From Longimicrobiales bacterium (GTDB lineage: Bacteria; Gemmatimonadota; Gemmatimonadetes; Longimicrobiales; Gaopeijiaceae): 64,000 bases of DNA. The position numbers and the translations under genes are program-made. Every line of letters starts with the position of its first letter. The stretch's first letter is position 1. Positions 42,069-55,135 of the stretch are shown here, piece after piece. Location: positions 124,001 to 188,000 of the forward strand of contig JAQWPM010000021.1 in assembly GCA_029245345.1 (NCBI GenBank), given 5' to 3'. A model generated the notes under the pieces. It made no database searches. It worked only from the letters and a program-made list of their open reading frames with translations, and was not told where the DNA came from.

Positions 42069-42187
42069 TTGCAGCACGGCGCTCAGCGCCTGAAACTGAC
42101 ACCGTATAGGCCCCGTAGGGGGCTGCGAGCGTCGGCATCCCTCCCACCAGGCGCGTGAGGGAAATCAAACGCAAGAGGATTATAGAC

Positions 42188-43195
42188 ATGGCGGAAGACC
42201 AGGACGGCACTGTGGAGCAGGTAGAGAACGGCGGAGCGAAGGCTCGCCGAATCCTGACCGACATTGCCCCACATTCATGGGAGCACCCGGCCGACAAGGC
42301 CGCGTTGCAGGCGCTCAGGCGCATTCCTGTATTCGACGACATCCTTCGTAAGATCTTCGGCTTTATGACCGAACGCGCGTTTCGACTCGCGTTTCAGGCA
42401 AGTGCAGTACAGGTCAGCGAGAAGCAGTTTCCGAAGGTTTATCAGATCTACAAGGAGAGCCTCAAGACGCTCGACGTCCACGAGGAGTATCCGCTCTTCA
42501 TCTCCCAAACCCCGATCGTAAACGCTGGGGCATGGGGCATGGAAAAGCCGTTCATCATTTTGAACTCGGGTACCGTCCGCCTTCTCGACGACGACCAACT
42601 CGCATACGTGATCGGGCACGAGATCGGTCACATCGTCAGCGATCACGTTCTCTACAAGTCGATGACCGTGATCCTGCTCAACCTGGCGACAATGGGCTTC
42701 CCCATTGTCGGCCTGGCGGCACGTGCCATCTTGGTTGCGCTTCTTGAATGGCAGCGTAAATCAGAGCTGTCTTCGGATCGCGCCGGCCTCCTCACCGTGC
42801 AGGATCCCGAGATCGTACTCGGTACCATGCTCAAGATGGCCGGTGGCGGAGACGATGCAGAGACAGACCTCCAGGAGTACATCGTTCAGGCGGAGGAGTA
42901 CCGCGAGGGCGGCGACGTCGTCGACCAGGTCTTCAAAGTCTTGAATCTCCTGGCCCAGACCCACCCCTTCTACACGATCCGTGTGAACGAGCTACGTGCG
43001 TGGATCGAATCGGGCGATTACGACCGGATCATCCGAGGGGAGTACGCACGTCGGGGCGAGGCAGATCCCGCTTACCAGGAGGACCTGAAACAGGCCGCGT
43101 CTGCCTACGCAGAGGACGCCAAGGACTTCCTGGACACTATCGGCGACGCCGCGAAGCGTATGGGCTCGGACTTCGTGAGCGGCTTCAAGCAGTAG
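42188..43195 (+). CDS. M48-family zinc metalloprotease with a central membrane segment
   Basis: The 335-residue protein has HExxH as VIGHEIGHIVSDH (His144, Glu145, His148) and the downstream third ligand region ELSSDRAGLL. A hydrophobic stretch between them (VILLNLATMGFPIVGLAARA) fits the family. It has no N-terminal signal. HtpX-like or related peptidases degrade misfolded membrane proteins. The ATG at 42188 has AGAGG upstream; a longer in-frame GTG start exists but is weaker. A strong terminator follows. Confidence 0.88.
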   Translation: MAEDQDGTVEQVENGGAKARRILTDIAPHSWEHPADKAALQALRRIPVFDDILRKIFGFMTERAFRLAFQASAVQVSEKQFPKVYQIYKESLKTLDVHEEYPLFISQTPIVNAGAWGMEKPFIILNSGTVRLLDDDQLAYVIGHEIGHIVSDHVLYKSMTVILLNLATMGFPIVGLAARAILVALLEWQRKSELSSDRAGLLTVQDPEIVLGTMLKMAGGGDDAETDLQEYIVQAEEYREGGDVVDQVFKVLNLLAQTHPFYTIRVNELRAWIESGDYDRIIRGEYARRGEADPAYQEDLKQAASAYAEDAKDFLDTIGDAAKRMGSDFVSGFKQ

Positions 43196-44563: not shown

Positions 44564-44880
44564 TCACAACAACAACCCATTCGATCGAAGGAACGGTGGT
44601 CACAGCTTATCTTGGGATCGTCGTGGGTGAAGCCATTATCGGAGCCAACATCATCAAGGATCTTTTCGCGGGGGTACGCGACGTCGTTCGTGGACGCACG
44701 GGCGCGTGCGAAGAGGCGTTGCGCACCGCGAGAGCGCGCGCCCTCCGAGAGATGTCGCCCAAAGCTCAGGAACTCGGCGCATACGCGGTGATCGGAGTGG
44801 ACATCGATTACGAAGTCCTTGGAAAAGCTGGCAGCATGTTGATGGTGACCTCAGCCGGGACGGCCGTGAAACTCGGGTGA
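44560..44880 (+). CDS. YbjQ/UPF0145 family protein
   Basis: This 106-residue protein has the family pattern GTVVTAYLGIVVGEAIIGAN, an EEALRTARARALREM helix and AQELGAYAVIGVDIDYE. YbjQ forms a pentameric ring fold; the function is unknown and a heavy-metal-binding role has only been proposed. Its ATG overlaps the purD stop, so it is translated with purD. Confidence 0.9.
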   Translation: MITTTTHSIEGTVVTAYLGIVVGEAIIGANIIKDLFAGVRDVVRGRTGACEEALRTARARALREMSPKAQELGAYAVIGVDIDYEVLGKAGSMLMVTSAGTAVKLG

Positions 44881-44898
44881 GTCCGAGACGCGTAAGAA

Positions 44899-48680: not shown

Positions 48681-49412
48681 TTAAGTAGCCGTGCCCCAGT
48701 GCAGCGCTGCGATCCCACCGGTCAGCAACTTCCAACCCACGTCCTCAAATCCTACGTCCTCGAAGAGCGCTCCTAGTTCATCAGGCCCTGGGAACTCCTT
48801 CACGGATTTGGGCAGATAGGTGTAGGCCCAGGGGTGGCCCGAAACGAGCCTTCCGACGAGCGGCAGCACCCTGTTGAAGTAGAAGAGGTACCCGGCCCTC
48901 ATCAGAGGATTCGGCGGTACGGTGAACTCGAGGACCACAAGGCGGCGGCCGGGCTTGAGGACTCGGTGGAGGTCCGACAAACCCCGTGGCAAGTCACTCA
49001 GGTTCCGGACCCCGAAGCCGACCGTGGCGCCGTCGAATGTGTTGTCGGGAAGCGGCAGTCTTTGTGAATCCCCACATACAGCCGACACGGGCGCGCCCGA
49101 AATCTTAGGATTTCCCTGAACCAGCATGGGCTGCGCAAAGTCCGACGCGATCACTCGGCCACGGAAGGAGTCTCGCCCGGCCAACTCCAGCGCCAGGTCG
49201 AACGTACCGGCACATGCGTCCAGAAAGAGTCCCTCCCGCGCGGCTTCCCAGCCCAGGCGATCAACCGCCTTCCTGCGCCAGGAACGGTCGATATTCATGC
49301 TCAACACGTGATTGAGCAGATCGTACCGGGGCGCAATTTCGGAAAAGATCGTTTGGACCTGATCGTGCCGCTCAGCTCCCTCTGCGGGCGCGGCGGTAAA
49401 GGCTCTGGGCAT
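48681..49412 (-). CDS. ubiE: Demethylmenaquinone/ubiquinone C-methyltransferase
   Basis: The enzyme methylates demethylmenaquinol (or a ubiquinone precursor). The 243-residue protein has the family motifs FSEIAPRYDLLNHVLSMNID and TFDGATVGFGVRNLSDLPRG, then RLVVLEFTVPPNP. The SAM-binding motif is ACAGTFDLALEL, with Phe where most have Gly (GTGD). The ATG at 49412 is natural. It converges with the M16-like gene and diverges from the sigma factor gene. Confidence 0.93.
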   Translation of the reverse strand: MPRAFTAAPAEGAERHDQVQTIFSEIAPRYDLLNHVLSMNIDRSWRRKAVDRLGWEAAREGLFLDACAGTFDLALELAGRDSFRGRVIASDFAQPMLVQGNPKISGAPVSAVCGDSQRLPLPDNTFDGATVGFGVRNLSDLPRGLSDLHRVLKPGRRLVVLEFTVPPNPLMRAGYLFYFNRVLPLVGRLVSGHPWAYTYLPKSVKEFPGPDELGALFEDVGFEDVGWKLLTGGIAALHWGTAT

Positions 49413-49523: not shown

Positions 49524-49549
49524 GAAACCGGATAGGCCATCGGTGCGTA
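49524..49549 (+). promoter_or_regulatory. Candidate ECF-type promoter of the sigma factor gene
   Basis: GAAAC (49524-49528) and CGTA (49546-49549) are 17 bases apart, resembling the -35/-10 pattern of extracytoplasmic sigma promoters. Being just before the sigma gene, it could be autoregulatory. It would give a very short leader before the ATG at 49560. Confidence 0.3.
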
Positions 49550-49559
49550 GGGGTCGACG

Positions 49560-50234
49560 ATGACATCTAAATCCGCTTCCCTGCCCGGAGCCGCCTCCCA
49601 GTGGCGCCCCTCCTCGTGGCAGGATACGAATTCTCTGGGCTCTCACGATTACGCCGAGCTAGACGACCGCGAGTTGGCGACTCTCGCGGCGCGTGGGCGC
49701 GAGACAGCCTATAGGGAGCTGCTCGTGCGTTACGAGCGGCCCGTATTTTCGCTCATCTATCGGATGGTGCGTGACCGCACGCTCGCCGAGGATTTAGCGC
49801 AGGAAGCGTTTATTCGAGCCTTCAACGCGATCGGCGGCTACAAGACCAGCTACAAGTTCAGTAACTGGATCTTCAAGATCGCGAACAACCACACCATCGA
49901 TTACCTGCGCAAGCGCAAGCTCGACACGATCTCGATCCACGGGTCGCCCCATGCCACGAACGCTGACGAGATCAGTCAGTCTCAGATAGTGATCGAATCG
50001 CGTGACGAAACTCCAGAGCAGTATGTCGAGCATCGTGAACTCGGTGGTCAAATCGAAGAGGCGATCGGCGGGCTACGACCTGAGTACAAGACCGTCGTCC
50101 TCCTTCGGCACGTCGAGGGTTATGCCTACGACGAGATCGCTGAGATCATGGACCTCCCCTTGGGCACAGTGAAGACGTATCTGCACCGAGCCCGCGCTGA
50201 GCTCAAGAAACGCCTAATTCATGTCGTTTCATGA
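49560..50234 (+). CDS. ECF RNA polymerase sigma factor (RpoE-like)
   Basis: The 224-residue protein has sigma region 2 (RPVFSLIYRMVRDRTLAED, FIRAFNAIGGYKTSYKFSNW) and region 4 (PEYKTVVLLRHVEGYAYDEI, then LPLGTVKTYLHRARAELKKR). An N-terminal extension of about 40 residues before region 2 is low-complexity. The ATG at 49560 follows a loose AGGGG site. The next gene encodes a zinc-binding anti-sigma factor and the following genes encode membrane and secreted proteins, so it should respond to an envelope signal. Confidence 0.95.
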   Translation: MTSKSASLPGAASQWRPSSWQDTNSLGSHDYAELDDRELATLAARGRETAYRELLVRYERPVFSLIYRMVRDRTLAEDLAQEAFIRAFNAIGGYKTSYKFSNWIFKIANNHTIDYLRKRKLDTISIHGSPHATNADEISQSQIVIESRDETPEQYVEHRELGGQIEEAIGGLRPEYKTVVLLRHVEGYAYDEIAEIMDLPLGTVKTYLHRARAELKKRLIHVVS

Positions 50235-50379
50235 GGGGCACTAAAGTGACAGACATCGAGATACCACAGGCCTTTCAAGCCCAACACAGGCAAGGCTTGC
50301 CGGGAGTCGTTTTTGCGAAACTTCGTTCACCAGCCGACCGTAGGGTGAGCCGTAGGTCAGAACACGGAGTCCAAGAAAA

Positions 50380-51315
50380 ATGAAAGACATGTTCCCAGAG
50401 CATCTGAGCGCAGAACGCCTCCAGGCGTTCCTCGACGGTGACCTCTCCCAGAGTGAGAGCGCCGGAACCGAGCAACACCTAGAGTCGTGCGCACGCTGCT
50501 CGTCGGAACTCGACGGATGGCGACTTCTGTTCTCCGAACTCGGAGAATTGGAGCCGTCACGACCCGTCCAGGGATTCCATGACCGAGTCATGGCCGCTGT
50601 GGCAATTCCGGAGCCAAAGCACGTCACCGTACGACTTCGGGATCGGTTGGCGGCAATGCTGCCAAGAAATCGCCACCTCGGCGCCCAGACGATCGACGAA
50701 CTACTGGAAGGGTTCCTCCCTGCCCGGCAGGTGTCGAGCGTCGAAGCACACCTCCACTCTTGTGGCCCCTGTGCGGCGGAAGCCGATGCGTTACGCGTCG
50801 TTTTCAAGAAGCTCGACAGCCTGGAACGGATGGCGCCTGCTGAGAACTTTGCAGATCAAGTCATGGCTCATGTTCGCCTGAGTCAGGCTCCTGCTCGCGT
50901 ACCGGTATGGAGACACGCACTCGCAGTAGCCAATCGCTTGGTCCCGCAGACGCGACAGGCATGGGCTGCTCTTTCAGGCGTCGCGGTGACGCCTGTAGTG
51001 ACCGTCGGCCTCATGGCCTACGCGGTCTTCTCACACCCGACGCTGACGCCGAGCTCTTTGGCATCCTTCGTTTGGTGGCAGATCACCGATGTGACCACCG
51101 CCGCGTGGTCTTCCCTGTCTGGGCTCGCACTCGAAAGTGTCCAGTCCTCAGGTATGGCTTCGCTTTTCGAGGCCCTTGCCGCGGCCCCGCTGCTCATTGC
51201 TGCGGGCTTCGGTGTGTACGCCATCGCGTGTGTGCTCGCGTTGCGGGTCCTCTACAAAAATCTCACTAACAACCGTCCTTTGGATGGTCGATATGCGCAT
51301 GTATCAGCTTCGTAA
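50380..51315 (+). CDS. Membrane anti-sigma factor with two zf-HC2 modules
   Basis: The 311-residue protein has two HxxxCxxC zinc modules: H33/C37/C40 (EQHLESCARC) and H124/C128/C131 (EAHLHSCGPC), about 90 residues apart. Most such anti-sigmas have only one. Two hydrophobic segments follow (VTPVVTVGLMAYAVF at about 215 and a second, LLIAAGFGVYAIACVLALRV, near the end). It probably holds the upstream sigma factor at the membrane. It begins at ATG 50380, 145 bases after the sigma gene. Confidence 0.88.
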   Translation: MKDMFPEHLSAERLQAFLDGDLSQSESAGTEQHLESCARCSSELDGWRLLFSELGELEPSRPVQGFHDRVMAAVAIPEPKHVTVRLRDRLAAMLPRNRHLGAQTIDELLEGFLPARQVSSVEAHLHSCGPCAAEADALRVVFKKLDSLERMAPAENFADQVMAHVRLSQAPARVPVWRHALAVANRLVPQTRQAWAALSGVAVTPVVTVGLMAYAVFSHPTLTPSSLASFVWWQITDVTTAAWSSLSGLALESVQSSGMASLFEALAAAPLLIAAGFGVYAIACVLALRVLYKNLTNNRPLDGRYAHVSAS

Positions 51316-52903
51316 GAACTTCTTAGCGGCCTGCCTTGGCCTCGTACTCGTCCCCTTCGTGCTATCAGCGCAGGTCCGGGATGTGGTATCCAAGGAAGTC
51401 TCGGTCGGTCAATCCGAGGCGACACTCCGTCTCGAATTCGCCGATGACGGCCACCTCGAGATCACCTTTGAGGACGGATCGATCCTCGTCGATGGAGACG
51501 TAGTCGGTCGTTTCGAACCGGGTGACGCACTCGAGGCCGAATGGAGATCTCTCCTAGGCCAAGCCATCGCCTTGGACGATGGCGCTCTGGCCCAGATGTT
51601 GTCGGACTGGACCGTGCCGGCCGAGTTGGCCAACGGACTCGCTGAGGCTGCCCAAGAAGTCGACCGGGCCCTCGAGGACGCACTCTTGTCGACGGATCTC
51701 ACCATCGACAGCGGCGATGGATCTGTCTCGCTGTCGATCGGTGACGATGCCTCGTTCCTGCGTGTGCTCCTGAACTCGACGAGCCGCCTTGGATTGATGG
51801 AGCAGGCACTCGAGAACGTAGATGGCGACCTCAGGATCCATGTCGAAGAAGACATCGTTGTCCGTGAGGGCGACGTCGTAGAGGGCACGCTGGTGATCAT
51901 CGGCGGAGACGCGCGCATCGGCGGCGAGGTAGAAGGCGACATCATCGTGGTCGATGGGACGCTGGAGTTGCTCGCAAACAGCCGTGTACGAGGTGAAGTG
52001 CGCCTTGCCGATGCTCGCCTCGTCCGCAACCTCGGTGAGATTGATGGAGGGCTGGTGGACGTGCTCGAAGACGAGCGCGATTTCGAATCAGAGCTTCGTG
52101 ATCGAGTCCGTGAAGAGGTCTCTGATGAAATCCGGAGTGAACTGCGGAATGAACTGAGGAACGTGACGCGGCTGGACCTCAAGGATGAGGGCTTCTCGCT
52201 CATGACCCCCTTCCGCCCGGTGATCCGTGGTGTGAGCGGGCTGATGGAGAACCTGATCGCTGTCTTCATTCTCGGGCTTCTGGGTGCCGCTGCGGTCGCA
52301 TTCGCCGGTGGCAATGTCGACGCCATCGCGGAGACGGCAAAGCGTTCCCCGGGTCGCTCAGCGATGGTCGGATTCGCGGGTACGTTACTTCTGCTTCCCG
52401 TCTGGATCCTGGGTGCTATCGCGCTCGCAGTCTCGATCATCGGAATCCCGGTCGCCGTCGCATGGCTGCCGCTCTTTCCGGTCGCTGCCGTCGCCGCTGC
52501 CGTGTTGGGCTACCTCGCGGTCGCTCGCAATACCGGTGAGTGGTTGTCCGATAGCGGATACCCCTGGACGAGTTGGATCAGAAAATCGAACCAGATGTTC
52601 ACCGTCGTGGGGGGGTTGGTCGGACTTTCCGTTCTGTTCATGGTGGCTAATGTGGTATCGATCGCACCGTTCCTCGGCTTCTTGACGGTCCTGCTCATGA
52701 TCGCGGGCAGCATCGTGACGTTCATGGCGGTTCAGGTCGGCTTTGGAGCTGTGATCCTGACACGGGCAGGACGTCGGCGTGAGTGGAACGACCCAATGGA
52801 ATCGGACGCAGCATGGGAAGCGGCAATGGACGTGGATGTGGATATCGACCCTGTGGTCAAGACCGACAATGGGACGAATGAGGAGGGGGGGAACGATGCG
52901 TAA
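51284..52903 (+). CDS. Signal-peptide protein with bactofilin-like beta repeats and a membrane domain
   Basis: The product has a signal peptide (FLAACLGLVLVPFVLSA), a soluble domain, a beta-repeat section (VEGTLVIIGGDARIGGEVEG, DIIVVDGTLELLANSRVRG) resembling the bactofilin/polymer-forming fold, and then four to five membrane segments (LIAVFILGLLGAAAVAFAGG, SAMVGFAGTLLLLPVWILGA). The tail is acidic. Starts: 51284, 51293 and 51299 are all ATG, each overlapping the anti-sigma gene; none has a good ribosome site, so I give the longest. It is the third gene of the ECF operon. Confidence 0.7.
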   Translation: MVDMRMYQLRKNFLAACLGLVLVPFVLSAQVRDVVSKEVSVGQSEATLRLEFADDGHLEITFEDGSILVDGDVVGRFEPGDALEAEWRSLLGQAIALDDGALAQMLSDWTVPAELANGLAEAAQEVDRALEDALLSTDLTIDSGDGSVSLSIGDDASFLRVLLNSTSRLGLMEQALENVDGDLRIHVEEDIVVREGDVVEGTLVIIGGDARIGGEVEGDIIVVDGTLELLANSRVRGEVRLADARLVRNLGEIDGGLVDVLEDERDFESELRDRVREEVSDEIRSELRNELRNVTRLDLKDEGFSLMTPFRPVIRGVSGLMENLIAVFILGLLGAAAVAFAGGNVDAIAETAKRSPGRSAMVGFAGTLLLLPVWILGAIALAVSIIGIPVAVAWLPLFPVAAVAAAVLGYLAVARNTGEWLSDSGYPWTSWIRKSNQMFTVVGGLVGLSVLFMVANVVSIAPFLGFLTVLLMIAGSIVTFMAVQVGFGAVILTRAGRRREWNDPMESDAAWEAAMDVDVDIDPVVKTDNGTNEEGGNDA

Positions 52904-53732
52904 GGCACTTGTTGCAGCGGTGACCGCTGTGCTGGTGGCATCAACATCTGCGTCGGCACAGGATTGGCGGACGGTGACGATGTCCCGTCAAATCGAGGAC
53001 AATGACGAGGTGCGGGTCATCGTCGATTACGGAGTGGGACGCTTCAATGTCACCTCCACGGACGGCGGCGTTCTCTATCGAATGAACCTCCGCTACGACG
53101 AGGGCCGCTTCGAGCCCATCGCCGACTTCAGCGGCGATCGCCTCGAACTGGGTGTGGCGTCCATCGGACGACGGTGGAACATCGGCAAGGGTGGCAACAC
53201 CGGGCAGCTGGACCTCGAGCTTGCTCGCGGAATCCCGATGGACCTCGAGTTGAACTTCGGGGCCGTGCGCGCCGATTTGGATCTCGGGGGACTGGCACTC
53301 ACCGCACTCGCTCTTCGGACGGGCGCATCTGAGTCCACCGTCGACATGTCCGAGCCAAACATCGCGGCAATGCGCACCGCCAGCTTCGAAGCGGGCGCCG
53401 CGGAATTCACCGCGCGCAACCTCGGGAACCTGAACGCCGAACGAATTGAAGTGACCGCTGGCGTCGGTGATCTTACCCTAGGCTTCAGCGGTCGTTGGGA
53501 GCAGGACGCCGCGGTATCGATCGACATGGGCCTTGGAACGTTGGAGCTTCGGTTCCCTGAAGGTCTCGGAGTCCGGCTTCGCAAAAAAAGCTTCTTCACA
53601 TCCCTCGATTCCGAGGGGATGGTGAAGCGCGGTGACGCCTATTACTCGCTCGATTGGGACGACGCTGACAAGAAAATCACGATCGACCTGGACGCGGCCT
53701 TCGGCAGCGTCAAGGTTGTGTGGGTCCGCTAG
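52896..53732 (+). CDS. Secreted LiaF-like / toast_rack-type beta protein
   Basis: The 278-residue product has a signal peptide (LVAAVTAVLVASTSASA). The rest is regular beta structure: VRVIVDYGVGRFNVTSTDGG, GGLALTALALRTGASESTVD, VTAGVGDLTLGFSGRWEQ, and a C-terminal segment (VSIDMGLGTLELRFPEGLGV) like the LiaF cell-wall-stress domain. The ATG at 52896 has a GGAGG site in the previous gene's end. It is probably exported and part of the envelope response. Confidence 0.75.
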   Translation: MRKALVAAVTAVLVASTSASAQDWRTVTMSRQIEDNDEVRVIVDYGVGRFNVTSTDGGVLYRMNLRYDEGRFEPIADFSGDRLELGVASIGRRWNIGKGGNTGQLDLELARGIPMDLELNFGAVRADLDLGGLALTALALRTGASESTVDMSEPNIAAMRTASFEAGAAEFTARNLGNLNAERIEVTAGVGDLTLGFSGRWEQDAAVSIDMGLGTLELRFPEGLGVRLRKKSFFTSLDSEGMVKRGDAYYSLDWDDADKKITIDLDAAFGSVKVVWVR

Positions 53733-53751
53733 TGCACCTGAGGAGAACATC

Positions 53752-53988
53752 ATGATCGGCACACTTTTGACTTTCTTCGCAGTCGGCTTGGTCACGCTGA
53801 TCGTGGCCGGGATCGTGCTGTCAATCGTAGGGACCGTCTTTTCGTTGACGTTCGGCCTGGCCGCGTTCCTACTCTTCCAGGTCGCGCCAGTACTCCTGAT
53901 TGGTTGGATCATGGTAAAGGTGTTCGAGAAAGTGAGAGGTGGCGATTCGTTGTCAGCCGCAGACAGAAAGTGGCTCGAAGGCGAATAG
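53752..53988 (+). CDS. Small two-helix membrane protein, last gene of the ECF locus
   Basis: The 78-residue product has two hydrophobic segments (LLTFFAVGLVTLIVAGIVLS and FGLAAFLLFQVAPVLLIGWI) and a short charged C-terminus. It resembles small envelope-stress membrane proteins but I do not recognise the family. The ATG at 53752 has GAGGAG nine bases upstream. Confidence 0.7.
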   Translation: MIGTLLTFFAVGLVTLIVAGIVLSIVGTVFSLTFGLAAFLLFQVAPVLLIGWIMVKVFEKVRGGDSLSAADRKWLEGE

Positions 53989-54029: not shown

Positions 54030-54048
54030 GGGTCCTAGACTAGGACCG
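54030..54048. repeat. Near-perfect palindrome spanning the mrp stop codon
   Basis: CGGTCCTAG-A-CTAGGACCG: nine-base arms around one base, covering the stop codon of mrp. It sits between two convergent genes, so it may act as a weak bidirectional terminator. There is no T-run. Confidence 0.5.
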
Positions 54049-55135
54049 CGAGGCGTTCTTCTACCGCCTTCATCACCGCAATCAATGCCGCGGCTGCACC
54101 AGAGTCCGGTGCCGAGACGACGGTGGGCACACCCTCATCACCTGCCTTGCGCACAGCCGGATCCAGCGGCACTCGTCCCAAGAAGGCGAGCTTCATTTCC
54201 TTCGCCAGGCTCTCACCACCCCCAGAGCCGAAGACGTCGACGATCTCGTCACAATGCGGACACGCCATGCCGCTCATGTTCTCGACGACCCCCAACACGC
54301 GGGTGTTCACTCTCTCGAACATCTTCACACCGCGCCGTACGTCCCCGGTAGAGACTTCCTGCGGAGTAGTCACCATCACAGCGCCGTCGAGATCGATGGT
54401 CTGAACGAGCGACAGCTGCGCGTCACCGGTTCCCGGCGGCATGTCCACAACCATCATATCGAGGTCGCCCCAATCGACTTGCTCGAGAAACTGCTTCAGG
54501 ATGCCTGAAATGAGCGGTCCACGCATGATGGCGGGTTGTTCTTTGTCCAGCAGGAAACCCAGGCTCATCAGCTTCACCCCGTGAGACTCGAGCGGCTCAA
54601 TAAGCTCTTGTCCCTTGTCGCCCGTCACACTGGGGCGTCGCTGCACACCAAACATCAGCGGGATGTTCGGCCCGTAGATATCGGCGTCGAGAAGGCCAAC
54701 GGACCGTCCGGACTGAGCAAACGCTGCGGCGAGGTTTGCTGCTACCATCGACTTCCCTACTCCACCCTTTCCTGAACTCACCGCAATGATCTGGCGAACG
54801 CCGGTCAGGACCCCTGGACGAGGAGTCGGTGCCGGCACGGACCCCGGCTGGAGCCCCCCCTGGCGTCCGCCGCCACCGGAAGGTGTCATCTGCGGCAGCT
54901 GCACGTTCACCTTCACTTCTGAGACGCCCTCGACGCCTTCGGCGGCCGCACGGGCTTGCTTCAAAAGGTCACTTGGGTCGTCTCCCCCTAAAATGAACTG
55001 GAAGCGTACGACACCCGAATCTTCGGCGGTGAGGTTTTGCACCTGACCGCTCGCGACTAGGTCGCGTTCCTTGGTCGGGTGCTTGATCTTGGCCAAAGCG
55101 GCCATCACCGAGCGACGTAACTCGTCAGCAGTCAT
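54035..55135 (-). CDS. Mrp/ApbC iron-sulfur cluster carrier ATPase
   Basis: Mrp/ApbC proteins bind and pass on Fe-S clusters. The 366-residue protein has an N-terminal DUF59/MIP18-like domain, a Walker A of the deviant type SSGKGGVGKSMVAANLA, the switch region LLDADIYGPNIPLMFG and DMPPGTGDAQLSLVQ, and the CxxC motif ACPHCDEIV. The length is typical of the long form. ATG at 55135. It stands alone. Confidence 0.95.
   Translation of the reverse strand: MTADELRRSVMAALAKIKHPTKERDLVASGQVQNLTAEDSGVVRFQFILGGDDPSDLLKQARAAAEGVEGVSEVKVNVQLPQMTPSGGGGRQGGLQPGSVPAPTPRPGVLTGVRQIIAVSSGKGGVGKSMVAANLAAAFAQSGRSVGLLDADIYGPNIPLMFGVQRRPSVTGDKGQELIEPLESHGVKLMSLGFLLDKEQPAIMRGPLISGILKQFLEQVDWGDLDMMVVDMPPGTGDAQLSLVQTIDLDGAVMVTTPQEVSTGDVRRGVKMFERVNTRVLGVVENMSGMACPHCDEIVDVFGSGGGESLAKEMKLAFLGRVPLDPAVRKAGDEGVPTVVSAPDSGAAAALIAVMKAVEERLAVLV

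Follow-up and report, generated by a model that had tools for sequence, protein, structure and literature searches.

A conserved ECF sigma factor locus of the class Gemmatimonadetes that encodes a predicted exported beta-helix membrane protein

The 64-kb stretch of DNA analysed here, which we refer to as the window, contains five genes between ubiE (48681–49412, minus strand) and mrp (54035–55135, minus strand). All five lie on the plus strand, as an earlier note on this DNA had claimed. After revision (reading frames in this GC-rich DNA having been called mechanically), the starts of the genes were placed at 49560, 50380, 51284 (or 51299), 52896 and 53752. The reading frames of genes 2 and 3 overlap, as do those of genes 3 and 4, and gene 5 begins 19 nt after gene 4; the five genes are one unit. 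In particular, gene 4 most likely starts at the ATG at 52896, which sits behind AGGAGGGGGG and creates an 8-nt overlap with gene 3, and not further upstream. A search for a terminator 3' of gene 5 returned no inverted repeat at the threshold used (fold z -0.74). Our search of the literature, with most subscription journals outside its reach, found no description of the locus. Signal peptides and membrane helices, here and below, were deduced from hydropathy and AlphaFold2 models and not from dedicated predictors. The genes are as follows.

49560–50234, plus strand: gene 1, ECF sigma factor, SigW-like, 224 residues (Pfam/NCBIfam)
50380–51315, plus strand: gene 2, anti-sigma factor, 311 residues, with two zf-HC2 modules and two C-terminal membrane helices
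51284–52903, plus strand: gene 3, exported beta-helix membrane protein, 539 residues (Pfam, hydropathy, AlphaFold2)
52896–53732, plus strand: gene 4, secreted Toastrack/LiaF-like protein, 278 residues (Pfam, model, structural match)
53752–53988, plus strand: gene 5, small two-helix membrane protein, 78 residues

The product of gene 1 has the make-up of an ECF sigma factor, with matches to Sigma70_r2 (63 bits) and Sigma70_r4_2 (65 bits) that are both far over the Pfam cut-off, and no other large domain. SigW is its best-scoring NCBIfam family, although the equivalog level is not reached (158.5 against 209 bits and 142.1 against 243.1 bits). Across the class Gemmatimonadetes the sigma core is about 51–86% identical, and nearly all of the best 80 named relatives of the gene are labelled Gemmatimonadota, which assigns the window's genome to this phylum. 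(Note that three loci found in assemblies labelled otherwise, L161, L164 and L214, which bear the labels Gammaproteobacteria, BD2-11 clade [listed under Pseudomonadota] and Kuenenia, fall within Gemmatimonadota when placed on the sigma tree, and these assemblies are therefore probably mislabelled or contaminated.)

Gene 2 adjoins the sigma gene and encodes a predicted zinc anti-sigma factor of the class I ASD kind, in which zf-HC2 matches twice, both times above the Pfam cut-off, and whose zinc modules would lie on the cytoplasmic side. The two HxxxCxxC modules that had been put about 90 residues apart are separated by 91 residues.

50476–50499, plus strand: zinc motif 1 of gene 2, HLESCARC
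50749–50772, plus strand: zinc motif 2 of gene 2, HLHSCGPC

The number of such motifs per anti-sigma factor ranges from none to three across loci. Three occur in one genus (L076, L078 and L079), and the motif has been lost in several loci of family f1, mostly in genus g2 (L024, L029, L031, L088 and L090–L092).

The predicted product of gene 3 comprises, in order, a signal peptide, an N-domain, a beta-helix, a charged helix, five membrane helices and an acidic tail. Residues about 170–270 of the 51284–52903 product had been singled out for structure prediction, and the AlphaFold2 model (33 aligned sequences) places a beta-helix at residues 183–259, with pLDDT mostly above 90, between an N-domain (residues 34–135) and a long charged helix that is followed by five long membrane helices.

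51830–52060, plus strand: bactofilin-like beta-helix, gene 3 residues 183–259 (AlphaFold2, structural match)
52235–52759, plus strand: gene 3 membrane domain, residues about 318–492

The model and structural matches indicate a beta-helix core of the BacA type: with VIA-align, BacA (2n3d) ranked first (Z 9.5, rmsd 2.9, 83 residues) and a bactofilin of Thermus (6ria) third (Z 7.8, rmsd 1.5, 61 residues), with other beta-helices nearly equal to the bactofilins in score. The Pfam Bactofilin family (PF04519) matched at the edge of its threshold (25.7 and 27.9 bits against a cut-off of 27.9). Searches of the whole model against the PDB with Foldseek gave nothing significant, and we therefore claim no fold relative for the N-domain or the membrane domain; phmmer found no match among PDB sequences. 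By loop charges (the positive-inside rule) the protein would have its N-terminus outside and its C-terminus inside, and this predicted topology, together with the signal peptide, is at odds with the cytosolic location expected of bactofilins. The combination of signal peptide, bactofilin-like repeat and membrane helices that the earlier note had proposed is thus borne out by the predicted signal peptide, topology and fold.

Among 121 homologues of gene 3, which were counted by their membrane domain so that the universality of this domain is by construction, 58 have both the N-domain and the beta-helix, 44 the beta-helix only, 13 the N-domain only and 6 neither. The beta-helix, present in 102 of the 121 proteins, is missing from the f2 loci examined and from parts of f4 and f5. 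These counts show that the predicted ectodomains of gene 3 are swapped on a constant membrane anchor.

Gene 4 encodes a protein for which Pfam places Toast_rack_N and LiaF-like_C just below cut-off, and whose model (pTM 0.83) is a Toastrack solenoid. The best structural match is 4qrk (E 9.0e-15), which Ravi et al. 2024 (PMC11237479) use as a reference structure for Toastrack, and 4opw also matches (E 1.2e-5), as expected of the Toastrack fold (DUF4097/DUF2154/DUF2807). All 17 aligned homologues have a signal-peptide-like start with an xAQ site, and hydropathy and the model revealed no membrane helix. Of the secreted LiaF-like protein that had been described here, the predicted signal peptide and Toastrack fold stand; it is not LiaF itself, as no LiaI-LiaF membrane domain is fused to the Toastrack domain.

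Near the predicted signal-peptidase site, an xAQ motif occurs in 22 of 24 and 26 of 33 gene-3 sequences and in 17 of 17 gene-4 sequences. On this pattern, Gln seems to be the first residue of the mature exported proteins once signal peptidase has cut, as under the 'Q-rule'. That rule has been called exclusive to Bacteroidetes (PMC10653852); high Q-rule values have been reported in some other groups, with Gemmatimonadota unmentioned (PMC5837995).

Gene 5, described earlier as a two-helix protein, does encode two hydrophobic helices and ends in a conserved tail, LSAADRKWLEGE, of the pattern LSxADRxWLE; it matched no Pfam or NCBIfam family. Among the loci examined it is confined to families f1–f3, and it shows a weak profile relation (probability 94%) to the other small membrane protein of the predicted regulon, both being short and hydrophobic.

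Upstream of several genes in the window we found candidate promoters of the SigW type.

49524–49549, plus strand: promoter P1, SigW-type, GAAAC-N17-CGTA, before the sigma gene
50317–50342, plus strand: promoter P2, SigW-type, GAAAC-N17-CGTAGGG, between the sigma and anti-sigma genes
42092–42117, plus strand: SigW-type promoter, GAAAC-N17-CGTAGGG, before the M48 gene
42155–43195, plus strand: M48 peptidase (HtpX-like family), predicted regulon member

The P2 site is present in 71 of 78 named independent loci, and the P2-type pattern has 93 matches in 1.67 Mb of strands as against 1 for the reversed pattern. The consensus across loci, TGAAACY-N16-CGTAGG, matches the published SigW consensus, TGAAAC-N16,17-CGTA (PMC2375139), which by motif match precedes the predicted target genes. 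P1 is not general, with a site before the sigma gene in only 14–16 of about 77 named loci (about a fifth). Its -10 element ends 10 nt before the sigma ATG, a spacing that recurs in relatives, and the presumed transcript would therefore be almost leaderless. A further match in the window (44868–44894, GAAAC-N18-CGTA), 5 nt ahead of a MutM-like glycosylase gene, is probably due to chance.

Comparison across genomes extends the pattern to further genes. The motif lies no more than 250 nt upstream of 21 of 30 M48 orthologues and of 10 of 30 orthologues of a YbjN-like gene, with none of 30 for the reversed control in either case. In eight relatives there are 47 promoter-like sites as against 8 for the reversed pattern, and the genes behind them encode M48, YbjN-like, small membrane, MacB-type permease, PadR, TolC and HlyD proteins. 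In the genome that holds the window, the genes with the pattern ahead of them are, besides that for the M48 peptidase, those for a TolC-like protein, a membrane protein of 79 residues and a YbjN/CesT-like protein, as well as weaker candidates. That genome taken alone has 9 sites against 8 for the reversed pattern, so that the evidence for a regulon is comparative, and some sites fall within reading frames or ahead of genes of doubtful relevance. In the sampled genomes of f10, from the other class of the phylum, M48 and YbjN-like genes were absent at the thresholds used. (In addition, four loci, L110, L128, L132 and L133, carry a SigW-type motif ahead of MacB/FtsX-type permease and PadR regulator genes, and in two distant families, at L122 and L149, such motifs precede genes for proteins of about 100 residues with one helix and a coiled-coil-like part; that of L122 has no Pfam match.) These comparisons support a predicted envelope-stress regulon under a SigW-type promoter. 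The earlier note's idea of an envelope-stress system gains support, at the level of inference, from the conserved promoter and the genes behind it (M48, TolC/HlyD/MacB parts and small membrane proteins).

Across the class Gemmatimonadetes the gene order ubiE-[sigma, anti-sigma, gene 3, gene 4]-mrp has been kept, which places the locus far beyond chance; within the ubiE/mrp frame, the sigma and anti-sigma genes, gene 3 and usually gene 4 recur in families f1–f9. Of 200 genomes from the phylum, 163 gave a match in a single-protein search with gene 3. The earlier note had named homologues of genes 3–5 occurring mostly without the sigma factor as the outcome that would count against it; in fact the sigma gene is present at 65 of 69 gene-3 loci (window included), and the proposal was not overturned. 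Three of the four exceptions are short or lie at contig ends. The fourth, L084 (genome G075), has genes 3, 4 and 5 and the anti-sigma gene and lacks the sigma gene where it is expected, possibly through a frameshift or an assembly error. Conversely, in a separate named collection gathered from the sigma gene, which overlaps the first in part since some loci come from the same genomes, gene 3 is present at 49 of 57 loci with enough sequence. The absence of hits to gene 3 in f4 and f5 by single-protein search proved to consist mostly of false negatives, since profiles found diverged copies: such a copy lies at the expected place in 7 of 11 sigma-bearing genomes that had scored zero, 5 of the 7 having no detectable beta-helix. 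Of the remaining 4 genomes, two truly lack gene 3 at the locus and two are cut by contig ends.

Gene losses within the class provide a natural experiment. At all 126 loci with gene 3 the anti-sigma factor has membrane helices, and at all 8 loci without gene 3 that have room for it (from 7 different genomes) the anti-sigma factor has none, being mostly about 80–90 residues long; sigma gene and promoter are kept there, and two of the genomes keep the motif before M48. The loci without gene 3 lie in one fully supported clade of nine on the sigma tree, in which the membrane helices of the anti-sigma factor disappeared along with genes 3 and 4, and the losses thus amount to one evolutionary event. 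This joint loss, though a single event, suggests that gene 3 talks to the anti-sigma factor in the membrane. Moreover, since these lineages keep the sigma factor, a soluble anti-sigma factor and the M48 promoter, it seems that the core switch can do without gene 3. In five genomes of the family to which the window belongs, the sigma gene, gene 3 and gene 4 are all missing; these genomes are small, and the loss may reflect general reduction. A sixth genome, G096, lacks the sigma gene and gene 4 and has a distant beta-helix membrane protein. That protein (L268:3455–5869) is exported by prediction, ends in an RDD-like part and adjoins a different ECF-like sigma gene.

Our preferred interpretation, which we put at about an even chance, is that the locus is an envelope-stress switch of the SigW/RsiW kind that has been inherited vertically and comes with a membrane module of its own, gene 3 being a partner of the anti-sigma factor. 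In this scheme, the zinc anti-sigma factor, anchored by two membrane helices, would keep the sigma factor inactive and, upon envelope damage, would release it. The freed sigma factor would then transcribe from TGAAACY-N16-CGTAGG promoters, its targets being the operon from the anti-sigma gene to gene 5 and, in much of the family that includes the window, the sigma gene itself, so that induction of the operon would supply both negative feedback and the membrane module. The M48 membrane protease, small membrane proteins and the YbjN-like protein would be further targets, as would efflux parts in some species. Gene 3 would most likely partner the anti-sigma factor in the membrane through its constant membrane domain, with its interchangeable ectodomains (beta-helix, N-domain or coiled coil) facing the periplasm, and gene 4, as a periplasmic Toastrack protein, would probably dock at gene 3. 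Comparison or modelling is the source for the operon, promoter, folds, topology, conservation and co-loss; the binding partners, the signal and the release we infer. For the specific proposal that gene 3 is the membrane partner of the anti-sigma factor, which was drawn from sequence comparison, we regard the case as evenly balanced.

A serious alternative, with an appreciable probability that falls short of even, holds that genes 3–5 are pure effectors, a Psp/Lia-like module for membrane protection induced by the sigma factor, and that the anti-sigma factor does the sensing itself, by means of its helices and short periplasmic loop. Such a role fits the position of genes 3–5 downstream of a sigma-type promoter, the free variation of the gene 3 ectodomains and the fact that the sigma/anti-sigma pair outlives the loss of gene 3. 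YvlB of B. subtilis is a Toastrack protein. Toastrack-type proteins are among the B. subtilis SigW targets, an example being yvlB in the yvlA–D operon (PMC3498285). A purely effector role does not predict, however, that the clade without gene 3 should also have lost the membrane helices of its anti-sigma factor, but one event proves little.

A more elaborate form of the partnership between gene 3 and the anti-sigma factor, which we consider improbable, would make gene 3 both co-anti-sigma factor and sensor: its membrane bundle would clamp the anti-sigma helices, and assembly or disassembly of the exported solenoid (with the Toastrack protein) would report the state of the envelope and free the sigma factor. 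If true, this would be the first case known to us of an exported bactofilin-like scaffold with a role in signalling. The related proposal of the earlier note, in which a bactofilin-like repeat, once exported, polymerises and serves as sensor or effector in its own right, likewise strikes us as doubtful. An exported bactofilin-like beta-helix is supported by the model and occurs in 102 of 121 gene-3 proteins, but it is missing in 19 of 121, and the helix-flanked ends (residues 155–176 and 260–299) would be expected to cover the ends of the solenoid, through which bactofilins polymerise; as stated, the proposal went unsupported, because the beta-helix is dispensable and the membrane domain constant. 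Ordinary conserved synteny, with the sigma factor and genes 3–5 functionally uncoupled, is scarcely credible: ubiE and mrp lie next to the locus too, and no functional relation need follow from that, but the shared promoter, the overlapping reading frames and the joint absence of the sigma gene, gene 3 and gene 4 from five genomes of the window's family speak against it.

Viewed as a switch of the SigW/RsiW kind, the locus has both shared and distinct features. We know of no B. subtilis counterpart of gene 3. Like the B. subtilis system, the locus combines an ECF sigma factor that scores best as SigW, a membrane-anchored anti-sigma factor of the zinc type, a TGAAAC-N16,17-CGTA promoter (PMC2375139) and a predicted regulon of membrane proteins. 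Unlike that system, it has a sigma factor that misses the SigW equivalog cut-off (158 against 209 bits), an anti-sigma factor with two zinc modules and two membrane helices, and a promoter between the sigma and anti-sigma genes. The locus also resembles Lia, Psp and other Toastrack modules in that gene 4, with its Toastrack fold, lies next to a membrane protein with several helices and to a stress regulator, and Toastrack contexts with a linked sigma factor have been predicted (Ravi et al. 2024, PMC11237479). That study argues that Toastrack is intracellular, whereas gene 4, with its signal peptide, encodes a predicted extracytoplasmic protein; bactofilin and Gemmatimonadota are unmentioned in it. 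We found no LiaRS, LiaI-LiaF-TM or PspC domain in the operon, and neither a LiaRS two-component system nor PspA among the families identified next to the locus. With the bactofilins (BacA and that of Thermus), gene 3 shares a beta-helix (Z 9.5 and 7.8), its Pfam score lying right at the cut-off; in contrast to these cytosolic proteins, it is predicted to be exported and membrane-anchored, and its beta-helix is shorter, has helices at both ends and is optional. Proteins encoded outside the sigma locus at L268–L270 likewise join a signal peptide or lipobox, a beta-helix and membrane helices, but they do not lie beside the locus sigma factor and are only weakly similar to gene 3 in sequence.

Taken together, the locus appears, from its sequence, to belong to a known type of alarm system, as a member that had not been described before, and to turn on its own brake, surface proteins and a membrane protease. 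It would offer a testable envelope-stress pathway, with sigma factor, promoter, regulon and membrane partners, for a class of poorly studied soil and water bacteria. The predicted export of its products would make it an exception to the idea that Toastrack and bactofilin-like domains work solely within the cell, and the clade with a soluble anti-sigma factor and without gene 3 would constitute a natural experiment on how membrane anti-sigma factors sense damage.
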